A stretch of DNA of 6,169 nucleotides from Actinomycetales bacterium (GTDB lineage: Bacteria; Actinomycetota; Actinomycetes; Actinomycetales; Actinomycetaceae), in contig JALHDK010000178.1 of the NCBI GenBank assembly GCA_022838965.1, positions 1 through 6,169 on the forward strand, written 5' to 3'. The notes below the pieces were generated by a model, which was not told the origin of the DNA, made no database searches, and saw only the letters and a list, made by a program, of their open reading frames with translations. Shown piece by piece: positions 2,847 to 5,949 of this stretch. Made by a program: the position numbers and the translations under genes. The number at the start of each line of letters is the position of its first letter. The stretch's first letter is position 1.

Positions 2847-3224
2847 ATGCGATTTGTGATCCGACTCATCGTCAACGCCGTGGCCATCTGGGTGGCCGCC
2901 TGGCTGCTCCAGGGGCTCAACCTCGTCGAGACGGGGGACACGGCCCGCCAGATCCTCTCACTCGGCGTCGTGGCCCTCATCTTCACGCTCGTGCACATGG
3001 TCGTGAAGCCCGTCGTGGCCGTGCTCTCGTTGCCGCTGTACATCCTCACGCTCGGGCTGTTCCACCTCATCGTCAACGCCCTCATGCTGCTGCTCACCGG
3101 CTGGCTCTCCACCCGGATCGGGAGCGGACTCGAGGTGGACGGGTTCTGGTGGGCCATGGCCGGGAGCATCGTCATCTCCATCGCCTCGTGGCTCGCCTAC
3201 GTGGTGATCCCCGAGCCTCGCTGA
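2847..3224 (+). CDS. Small four-helix membrane protein, phage-holin-4 superfamily (mycobacterial type)
   Basis: A 125-residue, very hydrophobic inner-membrane protein. Segments are predicted at about 5-22, 36-52, 55-87 (long, possibly one helix plus a re-entrant part) and 103-121. The family stretch VKPVVAVLSLPLYILTLGLF (53-72), followed by VNALMLLLTGWL, is typical of the family annotated 'phage holin family' or 'mycobacterial 4 TMS phage holin'. These are ordinary chromosomal genes across actinobacteria and many other bacteria. Nothing phage-like (endolysin, structural genes, integrase) is near, so lysis is not implied. AAGGA upstream supports the ATG. It is divergent from the aminotransferase (52-base gap) and convergent with the hydrolase (7-base gap). 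Molecular function is unknown. Confidence 0.87.
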   Translation: MRFVIRLIVNAVAIWVAAWLLQGLNLVETGDTARQILSLGVVALIFTLVHMVVKPVVAVLSLPLYILTLGLFHLIVNALMLLLTGWLSTRIGSGLEVDGFWWAMAGSIVISIASWLAYVVIPEPR

Positions 3225-3234
3225 CGGCCCGTCA
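3222..3234. terminator. Short palindrome containing both stop codons of convergent genes
   Basis: TGACG (3222-3226), GCC, CGTCA (3230-3234) is a perfect 5+5 dyad. Its left arm starts with the stop of the holin-like gene and its right arm ends with the complement of the hydrolase stop. It is too short to be a convincing terminator by itself, and some symmetry follows automatically from facing TGA codons. Confidence 0.2.
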
Positions 3235-4722
3235 CCGGATCCCCAGTCCCAGGTGCCGCGCCGCCTCGAGGAACTCCCTGCCGCGATCGGTGCGCGCGAA
3301 CTCGAACGTGTACACCCGGGCCATCGCGTCCTGCTCGTTCCACGCGGCCGCGGCACGCAGCTCGGCGTCGAGGGTGGCCACTTCGCCACCATCGGCCACC
3401 GCCTGTGCGTAGGCGGCGCCGTAGGTGCGCAGATCGTGCGCTCCGAACAGGGCGGTGTGGGTGGGTGCGCTGAACTGCACCGTGAGCTGGTTGGCGTTGT
3501 TCGTGTTGGCCAGGCCGTCGAGGGCGGGGATCCAGTCATCGAGGTTCTCCATGCGGATCACGGGGACGTCGGCGGGCACCCCTGTCACCTGCCCCACCGG
3601 GGATCCCAGCGTGACCACGCCGGCCACGTCGAACTGCGCGTTCACCGCGGGATCGGCGGCGAGTTCCGCGGCCACGATGCCCCCCTGCGAGTGCCCCGCC
3701 AGGACCAGGGTGTCACCGGGCTCCACCGGAGCCATCCGCAGGGCCTGCTTCGCCGCGAGCAGCAGATCGCTGTGCTCGCCCCCCATCAGTTGCAGGTTGG
3801 AGAGGTGGTCCTGCGGGTTGGCGGAGAAGAACAGCTCCCGCGTCCCCGGGATGACCACGGTCCAGGCCCGGGTGCCGTCCCTCCGCTCCTGCGCCACCAG
3901 CTCGATCCGTCCCACCCCGGTGGCGCTGGACGCGGCAGCCGCGCCGGACAGCCGCCGCACGACGTCAGGGACGCCGCGCAGCGGCGGAACCGCTGTCGCC
4001 GCCCCGATCGGCACCGTCATACCCGTCATCACCGTCCAGTCGCTGATCGTCGCGCTGTGCCGCGCCCCGGTCAGGGGATCCCGCGCCCACACCGCGACAG
4101 TGCCGCTCACGTGGTCCAGCCCGAACACGTCGAGCAGGCTGGAGGCGAGGTAGGGGACCGGTGCCGTGCCCCCCGCGGCGGGGACCGCCCCCACGATCCG
4201 CCCGGTCGGGTTGACCAGCGGGCCGAGGGTGGTGGCCGCTCCCGTGGGGTGCGGGACCGCGAACCTCCCCGTCAACACCCGCCACCACAGTCCGGCGGAC
4301 GTCCAGCCCAGGCGGGTCACCAGGTCGAGGGGGTGGGGCCCGGGCACCGGCCCCACCCAGGACCGCACCTCGCGACACGCGGTGTGCTCGGCCTCCTCGT
4401 AGACGGCGATGGCCCGGCCGACGCGCTCCCGCAGGTCCTCCACCTGCCCTTCCAGCGCGGCCAGCGAGACCGGACCCACCTCGACGCCGTCCAGCGCGGC
4501 CAGCGCCGCGGGGCCGGTGAGCGGGGCGAGCGTGTCGCACAGCATCACCACGGCCCGCGCCCGGGCCGCAGCCGCCCGCGCGGCCCGGACCGCCCCGACG
4601 GCGTCGTTCAGGAGCGTCAGCAGGGTGCGCAGGTGGCCGAGGTCCACGGCGGTGCGTCCGCCCAGAACATGCACGGTCAGGCGGGGGGCACCCGGATCGT
4701 CCCTCCGCGGGTCCCCCCTCAT
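3232..4722 (-). CDS. Alpha/beta hydrolase (lipase/esterase-like) with N-terminal helical region; possible type VII secretion substrate
   Basis: A 496-residue two-part protein. The C-terminal part (about 270-496) is an alpha/beta hydrolase: TVVIPGT (288-294), the nucleophile elbow GHSQGG (343-348) with Ser345, VVTLGSPVG (369-377), an acid candidate Asp395/Asp396 in LDDWIPALDG, and His428 in AHDLRTY. Residues 12-118 are Ala/Leu/Arg-rich and look like helices broken near 66-86. They end in Y-x-x-x-E (Y108-E112), a pattern used as the C-terminal secretion signal of Esx/PE proteins. No Sec or Tat signal or membrane segment is seen. Its only cysteines, C62 and C116, are in the N-terminal part. Residues 120-270 are Gly/Pro-rich and unrecognised. 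The ATG at 4722 overlaps the TGA of the preceding gene as ATGA, implying coupled translation; the frame is open far upstream but there lies under other genes. Substrate is unknown. The hydrolase call is firm, the secretion role inference. Confidence 0.8.
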   Translation of the reverse strand: MRGDPRRDDPGAPRLTVHVLGGRTAVDLGHLRTLLTLLNDAVGAVRAARAAAARARAVVMLCDTLAPLTGPAALAALDGVEVGPVSLAALEGQVEDLRERVGRAIAVYEEAEHTACREVRSWVGPVPGPHPLDLVTRLGWTSAGLWWRVLTGRFAVPHPTGAATTLGPLVNPTGRIVGAVPAAGGTAPVPYLASSLLDVFGLDHVSGTVAVWARDPLTGARHSATISDWTVMTGMTVPIGAATAVPPLRGVPDVVRRLSGAAAASSATGVGRIELVAQERRDGTRAWTVVIPGTRELFFSANPQDHLSNLQLMGGEHSDLLLAAKQALRMAPVEPGDTLVLAGHSQGGIVAAELAADPAVNAQFDVAGVVTLGSPVGQVTGVPADVPVIRMENLDDWIPALDGLANTNNANQLTVQFSAPTHTALFGAHDLRTYGAAYAQAVADGGEVATLDAELRAAAAWNEQDAMARVYTFEFARTDRGREFLEAARHLGLGIR

Positions 4723-4967
4723 CCCGGGCCTGCCGTCCACGCGCGGCACTCGCCGGCGAACGTCGCCAGCCGCTCCTGCGCACCGCGCAGTTCCCGCTCC
4801 ACGGCGTGCCCGGTCACGATCACGGCGTCGCGCGCGTCCCGGTAGTTCCGGGCCGCGTGGCCCGCCCACGTGGCGGTGTCCGCGCCGCGGAGCCGCGCGA
4901 GGGCGACGGCGAGCTGGTGGCGCGCCTCGCCCGCGGCGTGGACGGCAGTGGCCGGGTCGGTGATCAC
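4719..4967 (-). CDS. WXG100/ESAT-6-like small helical protein, partner of the hydrolase
   Basis: An 82-residue protein with two predicted helices (about 5-28 and 37-75) around a W-x-G turn at W34-A35-G36, followed by A38, A39 and Y42. This is the W-x-G-x-A-A-x-x-Y/F pattern of WXG100 proteins. It lacks a signal peptide, is all-helical and has one cysteine (C74). Length fits the family (about 80-105 residues). No Y-x-x-x-D/E follows its second helix; that motif is on the hydrolase instead, the division of labour seen in PE/PPE-type heterodimers. The GTG start at 4967 is set by GAGGAGGA ending three bases upstream. Its TGA overlaps the hydrolase ATG, so the two proteins are probably made together. 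The family call rests on a short motif and predicted helicity, so another actinobacterial helical-hairpin family is possible. Confidence 0.68.
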   Translation of the reverse strand: MITDPATAVHAAGEARHQLAVALARLRGADTATWAGHAARNYRDARDAVIVTGHAVERELRGAQERLATFAGECRAWTAGPG

Positions 4968-4990
4968 GGTTCCTCCTCAGGGACGTCCTG

Positions 4991-5145: not shown

Positions 5146-5949
5146 ATGACCGCTTTCCGCAAGTCCGGCTCCCCCGCGGCGATCGAGTCCGAGGCCGCAT
5201 CCCTGCGCTGGCTGGCCGCCGCGACGCGCGACGGCGGCGCGCCCGTGGTGCCCCTCCTCGCCACCTCCCCCGGTCACCTCGAGACCCGCCGGTTGCACGT
5301 CACTGCCGCCACACCGGCGGCCGCCGAGGTGTTCGGGCGCCGACTGGCGTCCACCCACGCCGCGGGTGCCGCGTGGTGGGGCCAGGGCCCCCCGGGCCTC
5401 GCCGACTCCCGCCTCGCGGAACTCGCCCATCCCATCATCACCACCGCGGCCGCGGCGCCCGGGTCCTGGGGCGAGTTCTTCGCCGACCTGCGGATCCGCC
5501 CCTACCTGCGTCTCGCCCGGGACCGGGGTGCGCTGTCCGCGACCGAGGTCCGGGTCGTCGACGCCGTGCTGGAACGGCTGGCGAGCGGCACCTTCGACGC
5601 CCCGCAGCCCGGACGATGCGGGGCGGTGGCGCGGCTGCATGGCGACCTGTGGGGCGGGAACGTGCTCTGGGCGGATGACCACCCCGAGGCCGCGGGCGAG
5701 GTCGCAGGGGTCCTCATCGACCCGGCCGCGCATGGCGGGCACGCCGAGACCGACCTGGCGGAACTCGCGCTGTTCGGATCCCCGCACCTGGACCGCACCC
5801 TGGCCGCGTACGGGGAGGTCTCCCCCCTGGCGGAGGGCTGGCGGGAGCGGGTCCCCCTGCACCAGCTGCACATGCTCACGGTCCACGCCGCCCTGTTCGG
5901 GGGCGGCTACGGCCGCCGGACGGTCGCAGTGGCCCGCCTGTTCCGGTGA
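5146..5949 (+). CDS. Fructosamine kinase / ketosamine-3-kinase family protein
   Basis: A 267-residue cytoplasmic kinase of the aminoglycoside phosphotransferase-like fold. Family members phosphorylate sugar-amine adducts (fructosamines, ribulosamines) on proteins or free amines, destabilising the glycation adduct. Landmarks are FRKSG at 4-8 (ATP-binding Lys6), the catalytic loop HGDLWGGNVLW (165-175, catalytic Asp167 and metal-binding Asn172), IDPAAHGGHAETDLAEL (191-207, DPA replacing DFG), and the family C-terminus WRERVPLHQLHML (232-244) with FGGGYGRR (251-258). The protein begins at the lysine strand and lacks the Gly-rich loop and first strands seen in longer members such as E. coli YniA. 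I recall short actinobacterial members starting similarly. The frame is open upstream to 4870 but that part overlaps the divergent gene, so the ATG is preferred. The GGHA where relatives often have GGHRE is a small deviation. The usual actinobacterial neighbour, a low-molecular-weight tyrosine phosphatase, is absent here. Confidence 0.87.
   Translation: MTAFRKSGSPAAIESEAASLRWLAAATRDGGAPVVPLLATSPGHLETRRLHVTAATPAAAEVFGRRLASTHAAGAAWWGQGPPGLADSRLAELAHPIITTAAAAPGSWGEFFADLRIRPYLRLARDRGALSATEVRVVDAVLERLASGTFDAPQPGRCGAVARLHGDLWGGNVLWADDHPEAAGEVAGVLIDPAAHGGHAETDLAELALFGSPHLDRTLAAYGEVSPLAEGWRERVPLHQLHMLTVHAALFGGGYGRRTVAVARLFR

Follow-up and report, generated by a model that had tools for sequence, protein, structure and literature searches.

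Two overlapping reading frames, one for a small helical protein and one for a hydrolase, raise the question of whether their products are exported together, and by which machinery. They lie in the window, i.e., the whole stretch of 6,169 nucleotides analyzed here (contig JALHDK010000178.1 of an Actinomycetales bacterium). Esx-type pairs carry W-x-G on one chain and YxxxD/E on the other, and a sequence-only reading of the window had interpreted the two genes as encoding a type VII-secreted protein with its partner, exported by an ESX system encoded elsewhere. The features needed for the argument are as follows.

4719-4967, minus strand: ORF of the 82-aa Esx-like WxG partner, with a GTG start
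3232-4722, minus strand: ORF of the 496-aa hydrolase with a putative N-terminal type VII-like targeting domain, with an ATG start
4719-4722, minus strand: ATGA, the stop/start shared by the small ORF and the hydrolase ORF, which recurs in the locus of the closest relative (L001)
4971-4978, minus strand: Shine-Dalgarno-like sequence GAGGAGGA, 3 nt upstream of the GTG of the small ORF
4860-4868, minus strand: W34-A35-G36 of the small protein, in the inter-helix turn (sequence and AlphaFold2 model)
4357-4671, minus strand: EspC/WXG100-like helical N-domain of the hydrolase, about residues 18-122 (PF10824 score and model helices)
4387-4401, minus strand: Y108-E-E-A-E112, the YxxxE motif of the hydrolase (sequence and family alignments)
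3277-4110, minus strand: alpha/beta hydrolase domain, about residues 205-482
3679-3696, minus strand: GHSQGG nucleophile elbow (S345), residues 343-348, invariant in 12 of 12 aligned sequences
5146-5949, plus strand: fructosamine-kinase-like gene, divergent beside the pair
2847-3224, plus strand: convergent gene matching PF04020, next to the hydrolase

The layout proposed in the sequence-only reading, with the ATGA overlap of the two ORFs, was verified in the sequence, and the motifs that it named (W34-x-G36 in the small protein, Y108xxxE112 and GHSQGG in the hydrolase) are all present. It had also stated that neither protein bears a Sec/Tat signal; a simple hydropathy scan, which is not a signal-peptide program, is in line with this, having detected no signal-like hydrophobic stretch in either protein (best 19-mer Kyte-Doolittle mean of 0.74 within hydrolase residues 1-40 and 0.60 for the whole small protein). 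The other neighbors in the window are a hisC-like aminotransferase gene (minus strand), a YwiC-like gene (plus) and a pyruvate dehydrogenase E1-like gene (minus). No ESX genes were recognized within these 6 kb, the Rfam search of the window yielded no match, and neither the small protein nor the hydrolase reaches the cut-off of any NCBIfam family.

For the small protein, an AlphaFold2 model (five-row alignment, mean pLDDT 85.2) predicts a hairpin of helices 5-27 and 37-79, with W34-A-G36 placed between them. The protein has no Pfam match, the cut-off of WXG100 (PF06013) included, and its three database homologues, besides the window's own entry, are named hypothetical or uncharacterized. Among 42 aligned partners from related loci, Pfam matches at E<=0.01 are to WXG100 (7/42), EspA_EspE (4/42) and PPE (2/42); the Trp is invariant in this set by selection, as the search required a tryptophan. 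The alignment comprises 41 of the 51 partners described below plus that of L097 (those of L064, L069, L078, L079, L081, L083, L095, L096, L107 and L115 are outside it, some being near-duplicates and some doubtful). The top three matches of the partner profile in the PDB are EsxB (E of 0.007-0.01), and in a profile-profile comparison the partners match the lone WXG100 proteins of related genomes weakly (53%, 45 columns). The Foldseek/VIA matches obtained with the hairpin lack specificity and are mixed helical proteins, with weak fold matches to a chain of the TelA-LXG/LapA complex (E 1.7) and a chain of PE5-PPE4-EspG3 (E 3.5).

Scanned alone, the N-domain of the hydrolase exceeds the cut-off of the EspC model PF10824 (25.6 versus 23.5 bits), whereas the whole hydrolase scores 20.2 bits, under the cut-off, as do its other whole-protein Pfam matches; EspC matches at E<=0.01 were obtained for 6 of 16 N-domains. 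When the pair was searched against type VII profiles, as the earlier reading had recommended, one chain was placed and the small protein matched none. Three N-domain helices are predicted (residues 28-62, 70-82 and 87-122), and YEEAE falls within the last of these, not behind its end. A YxxxE-like motif was found in 27 of 31 N-domains. In the family alignment of 12 sequences, its Y108 and A111 never vary and E110 hardly does; in the set of 16 N-domains the Y and A of the motif are invariant and the E is conserved in at least 90%. The profile-profile comparison with the lone WXG100 proteins (80%, E 1.4e-5, 91 columns) aligns YeEAE on YaEAE, and when the N-domain profile was run against the 204 genes of 12 loci chosen for linkage (see below), all five matches at E<0.001 were WXG100 proteins; the N-ends of the hydrolases in these loci were not detected by it, and 38 of 69 hydrolase matches lack an N-domain match. 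In the PDB, the same profile retrieved EsxB (6j19, 3fav and 1wa8; E of 0.02-0.05), aligned over most of its length. It should be noted that this search is not clean: 8qae, a designed coiled coil, scores best (E 9e-11), and the Esx chains are interspersed with helices derived from spike proteins and with further coiled coils. The LXG/TslA type does not apply to the hydrolase, which has no LXG match in Pfam at E<=1 and bears its helical domain at the N-terminus; PE/PPE matches are absent from Pfam results as well.

The enzyme part is a candidate lipase/esterase. A lipase fold is recognized, and GHSQGG, S345, D396, D402 and H429 are invariant in all 12 aligned family members (P0014 was excluded), so that a GxSxG elbow with invariant Asp and His is evident from the alignment. 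A plasmid search produced one partial match in Arthrobacter (33% of the query, 32.9% identity). When the hydropathy of residues 115-200, between the targeting domain and the enzyme, was compared over 12 homologues, two stood out, P0011 and P0012, with hydrophobic 19-mers (means of 2.4 and 2.0) that might touch the membrane; this segment is weaker in the window hydrolase.

The pair is conserved. In the closest relative, a metagenome-assembled Actinomycetales genome (L001), the hydrolase is 59% identical and the pair has the identical ATGA overlap (small ORF at 316-561, hydrolase from 558). We examined 62 loci, i.e., the window, L001 and 60 further regions, which represent 61 of the 87 hydrolase-positive genomes, taken roughly best-scoring first; two loci end at contig ends. 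A WxG-type ORF lies upstream of the hydrolase in 51 of the 62 (L095 and L115 being doubtful members) and was not found there in the other 11, and the exact W-x-G is present in 32 of the 62, with genes taken from a home-made caller that missed or mis-started some. The corresponding numbers for control genes from the same loci are 70/447 (16%) and 9/447; the excess of exact W-x-G is highly significant (Fisher, 1.5e-25). Because L001 keeps the pair with its overlap and the WxG ORF is enriched over control genes, the pair is not a chance arrangement. In seven loci (L065, L069, L073, L080, L082, L083 and L096), a second, weaker hydrolase-family match lies within a few kb of the main match, in most cases covering the enzyme part alone.

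Gene order around the pair is common to the window and L001, and the neighbors are alike in L057, too. The fructosamine-kinase-like gene is divergent beside the pair in both close relatives (L001, 3-230; L057, 9255-10055), and upstream of other loci a fructosamine kinase and a small phosphotyrosine phosphatase are suggested by antisense readings. That the exported lipase is an antibacterial toxin, rather than a housekeeping lipase of the envelope, is a minority option to which we give perhaps one chance in four: S. aureus secretes an antibacterial lipase, TslA, by its type VII system (PMC10730906; PMC11217815, as far as the accessible text of both goes), and the hydrophobic 19-mers of P0011 and P0012 could meet a membrane, whereas the gene next to the hydrolase is convergent, PF04020-matching and no evident immunity gene, and the identical neighbors in the window, L001 and L057 are unlike those expected of polymorphic toxin loci.

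Export itself can be approached through co-occurrence. The hydrolase is matched in 87 of 119 relatives of genome G001. A WXG100 gene is present in 86 of these 87, compared to 12 of the 32 hydrolase-negative genomes (p 2e-13, kinship ignored). As a marker for the ATPase, the EccC model TIGR03924 alone was discarded as unspecific (118/119 genomes and 9/14 controls). The replacement, a profile of 14 rows, still matches FtsK in every genome, therefore E limits were applied. ATPase matches at E<1e-80, a limit chosen after the scores were known and one that mixes compact ATPases with many long or partial matches, are found in 82/87 hydrolase-positive versus 7/32 negative genomes (p 1e-14, kinship ignored), so that, for the test of co-occurrence with eccC genes that the sequence-only reading had proposed, the hydrolase is seen to track ATPases of EccC/EssC type. 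Near-whole-length matches to the compact ATPase described below occur in 37/87 versus 0/32 (p 8e-7); in one negative genome, G003, the compact-ATPase profile is matched by two pieces on different contigs. WXG100 and T7-type ATPases are themselves associated (p 6e-17 over 119 genomes, kinship ignored). At the class level (246 genomes), 46 of the 47 that have a hydrolase match above 40 bits also have WXG100, compared to 118 of 199 others. The hydrolase is matched at any score in 92 of the 246; 45 of these score under 40 bits and are grouped with the 199.

Homologues in genomes lacking EccC had been named as evidence against export. Five hydrolase-positive genomes (G031, G033, G082, G084 and G103) have no ATPase match at E<1e-80. 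One of them, G082, has canonical EccC and EccB; three, G031, G084 and G103, have the hydrolase and WXG100 with ATPase matches at the FtsK level only, in genomes of unknown completeness. These associations also bear on a reading without export, namely an esterase that stays in the cytoplasm, its helical N-domain being regulatory and the small co-expressed protein a regulator or antitoxin, with the W-x-G there by coincidence. In favor of it, export is a prediction from sequence, the small protein has no Pfam match, hairpin folds are common, and the N-domain profile picks up designed coiled coils; however, Esx families are indicated for each of the two chains, and the hydrolase co-occurs with WXG100 and T7-type ATPases, which makes the cytoplasmic reading quite improbable.

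The question of the motor is then which system these ATPases belong to. A canonical ESX as the general partner of the pair was rejected: EccB, found in 18 of the 119 genomes, does not track the hydrolase (11/87 positive versus 7/32 negative, p 0.25). In related genomes there is a second class of EccC matches above the FtsK background, and we examined 14 such loci. Their ORFs are of 896-1391 aa, with an N-terminus that is FHA-like by alignment, membrane segments, and EccC/EssC-type ATPase modules. Three of these compact ATPases were compared to family models; FtsK_SpoIIIE is over the cut-off in 3/3 and FHA in 1/3, whereas the EssC and EccC models are well under the cut-off in 3/3. A histidine-kinase-like gene (as read) is close by in the 14 loci and a WhiB-like gene in 10/14. 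No ESX cluster was recognized at any of them, nor a giant envelope protein or Ser/Thr kinase from the protein starts as read, without a family search.

Fifteen relatives, all hydrolase-positive, were picked from the 37 with a near full-length compact FHA-type ATPase. EccB and cut-off-level EccC were found in none of the 15, nor was any YukD/EccD-like gene, and no mycosin exceeds the cut-off, with weaker subtilase-like matches in 12/15. In the six that have ATPase, WXG100 and hydrolase on one contig, the nearest two are 144-989 kb apart. For WXG100, G001 and G002 have one match each, and a GroEL-like gene is close to the WXG100 gene in 12 of the 16 loci examined (L117-L132). In 15 aligned WXG100 proteins (the gene of the 16th locus was not called), Y82 and E86 are invariant, a YxxxE again. 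The groEL-side WXG100 gene often adjoins a gene whose protein starts with a PQWL motif. The closest relatives probably have as their motor a lone, compact ATPase of FHA type instead of a canonical ESX cluster, and their likely export system is dispersed, with seemingly no more than a compact ATPase gene and a WXG100 gene left.

In more distant genomes, the hydrolase family is linked to ESX-like clusters. Twelve loci were selected for the closeness of hydrolase, WXG100 or ATPase matches and are illustrative, giving no estimate of a rate. In five of them (L134, L136, L137, L140 and L141), a hydrolase-family gene lies in or near an ESX-like cluster, with WXG100 genes and multi-TM proteins interpreted as EccD; four of the five have an EccC-like ATPase (1325-1763 aa), and L134 has mycosin-like genes. 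In L134, L136 and L137, the hydrolase is one gene away from a gene of the WxG type or a WXG100 gene. In L135, L138 and L139, the hydrolase adjoins a WxG-type gene, 10-12 kb from the groEL-side WXG100. At L134 (2516-4833), the hydrolase bears W-T-G and its small neighbor does not, as if the roles of the chains were swapped. Four other loci from hydrolase-positive genomes (L142, L143, L144 and L133), with long EccC/EssC-like ATPases (1445-1552 aa) and WXG100-like genes close by, resemble clustered T7SSd-like loci.

Such linkage raises the alternative that the pair is a substrate of a normal clustered ESX or T7SSd-like system, depending on the host, and that the lone ATPase of the relatives has another function and tracks it by descent only. 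Consistent with this are the 11 hydrolase-positive genomes with EccB, several with canonical EccC/EccB, the long ATPases of L142-L144 that adjoin WXG100-like genes, the 8 of 37 compact-ATPase genomes that also have EccB or cut-off-level EccC, and the association statistics, which were computed without correction for phylogeny or genome completeness. Conversely, the 15 picked relatives have the hydrolase and, at the cut-offs used, none of the cluster markers, and among 22 genomes with only an FtsK-level ATPase match, 19 are without both WXG100 and the hydrolase and 3 have both. We consider this alternative unlikely. The type VII interpretation of the earlier reading is largely supported: the hairpin with W-x-G at its turn, the EspC/WXG100-type N-domain and its YxxxE-like motif all agree with it. 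Its claim of an ESX system elsewhere stands with respect to a co-occurring, unlinked EccC/EssC-type ATPase and has to be corrected with respect to ESX, because the closest relatives likely use the lone FHA-type ATPase as motor and the occurrence of EccB is independent of the pair. To its description of the pair as stand-alone, away from eccC clusters, it has to be added that the pair is frequent among relatives and that some genomes have the hydrolase near ESX-like genes.

Known systems resemble the pair in part. PE-PPE lipases, such as LipY, fuse a type VII targeting domain to a serine hydrolase, and the window hydrolase has the same kind of fusion; unlike LipY, it has no PE/PPE match, and the PPE model is touched by only the two partners mentioned. 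With EsxA-EsxB heterodimers and EspC-type T7SSa substrates, the pair shares helical hairpins and W-x-G plus YxxxD/E, and with EspC also the N-domain score above that model's cut-off. It differs in that the EspC-like chain ends in a C-terminal lipase-like enzyme, the partner is weakly WXG100-like in sequence, and no ESX gene accompanies it in the 6 kb. TslA (T7SSb) and LXG proteins with small Lap partners are similar in combining a type VII lipase, a helical targeting domain and a small helical partner; in the accessible text on TslA, the targeting domain is C-terminal and there are two partners, whereas the window hydrolase has an N-terminal domain and one partner. T7SSc-j were defined from EssC gene neighborhoods (PMC11217815, accessible text). 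The T7SSd components given there are TsdA, TsdC, TsdD, TsdH and TsdI. The set of the relatives is like T7SSd, so described, in its Actinomycetota host, FHA-domain ATPase and WXG100, and a ubiquitin-like protein is likewise not found (15 relatives examined); unlike T7SSd, the ATPase (ORFs of 896-1391 aa, 14 loci) and WXG100 are not clustered. No T7SSd-type cluster (WXG100, FHA-ATPase, TsdD, TsdH, TsdI) was recognized at the 14 ATPase loci, as judged without a family search for TsdD/H/I. The word "hydrolase" is absent from the main text of that paper in the form accessible, and the lipases in its accessible passages are reverse, TslA-like toxins. Accessible parts of other reports describe Actinotignum schaalii with a second eccC elsewhere (PMC5720513), a WXG100 gene up 31-fold in stationary Bifidobacterium longum (PMC9415070), and a clustered system in B. 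choerinum (PMC4965825). In the literature covered, mostly titles and the openings of abstracts with few subscription papers, we recognized no account of a dispersed arrangement or of this hydrolase pair.

Taken as a type VII lipase with an Esx-like partner, the pair is probably exported by a dispersed and very small system. The 82-aa hairpin protein would pair with the helical N-domain of the hydrolase, and W-x-G of the one together with Y-x-x-x-E of the other would form a composite export signal. An EccC/EssC-type ATPase would carry the folded heterodimer through the membrane; once outside the cytoplasm, the serine hydrolase at the C-terminus would work as a lipase/esterase. The candidate motor among the closest relatives is the compact ATPase of FHA type, whose position is fixed and not linked to the pair, while a single WXG100 gene lies at another site, in many cases close to groEL; for the window, we infer its motor from these relatives. 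A stronger version is more tentative, and we hold it to be somewhat less likely than its negation: a conserved, minimal dispersed T7SS, with the compact FHA-type ATPase as the sole dedicated translocase gene and WXG100 and the WxG/EspC-type lipase pair at separate sites, missed because surveys search for clustered genes.

Should this be true, type VII export would work with far fewer dedicated genes than in the clustered systems described, and would do so in bacteria that seem to carry only a stray WXG100 gene. A conserved lipase-like enzyme would be named as its likely cargo, and these bacteria would offer a small natural system in which to test what type VII translocation minimally needs and what W-x-G and YxxxE contribute to it.
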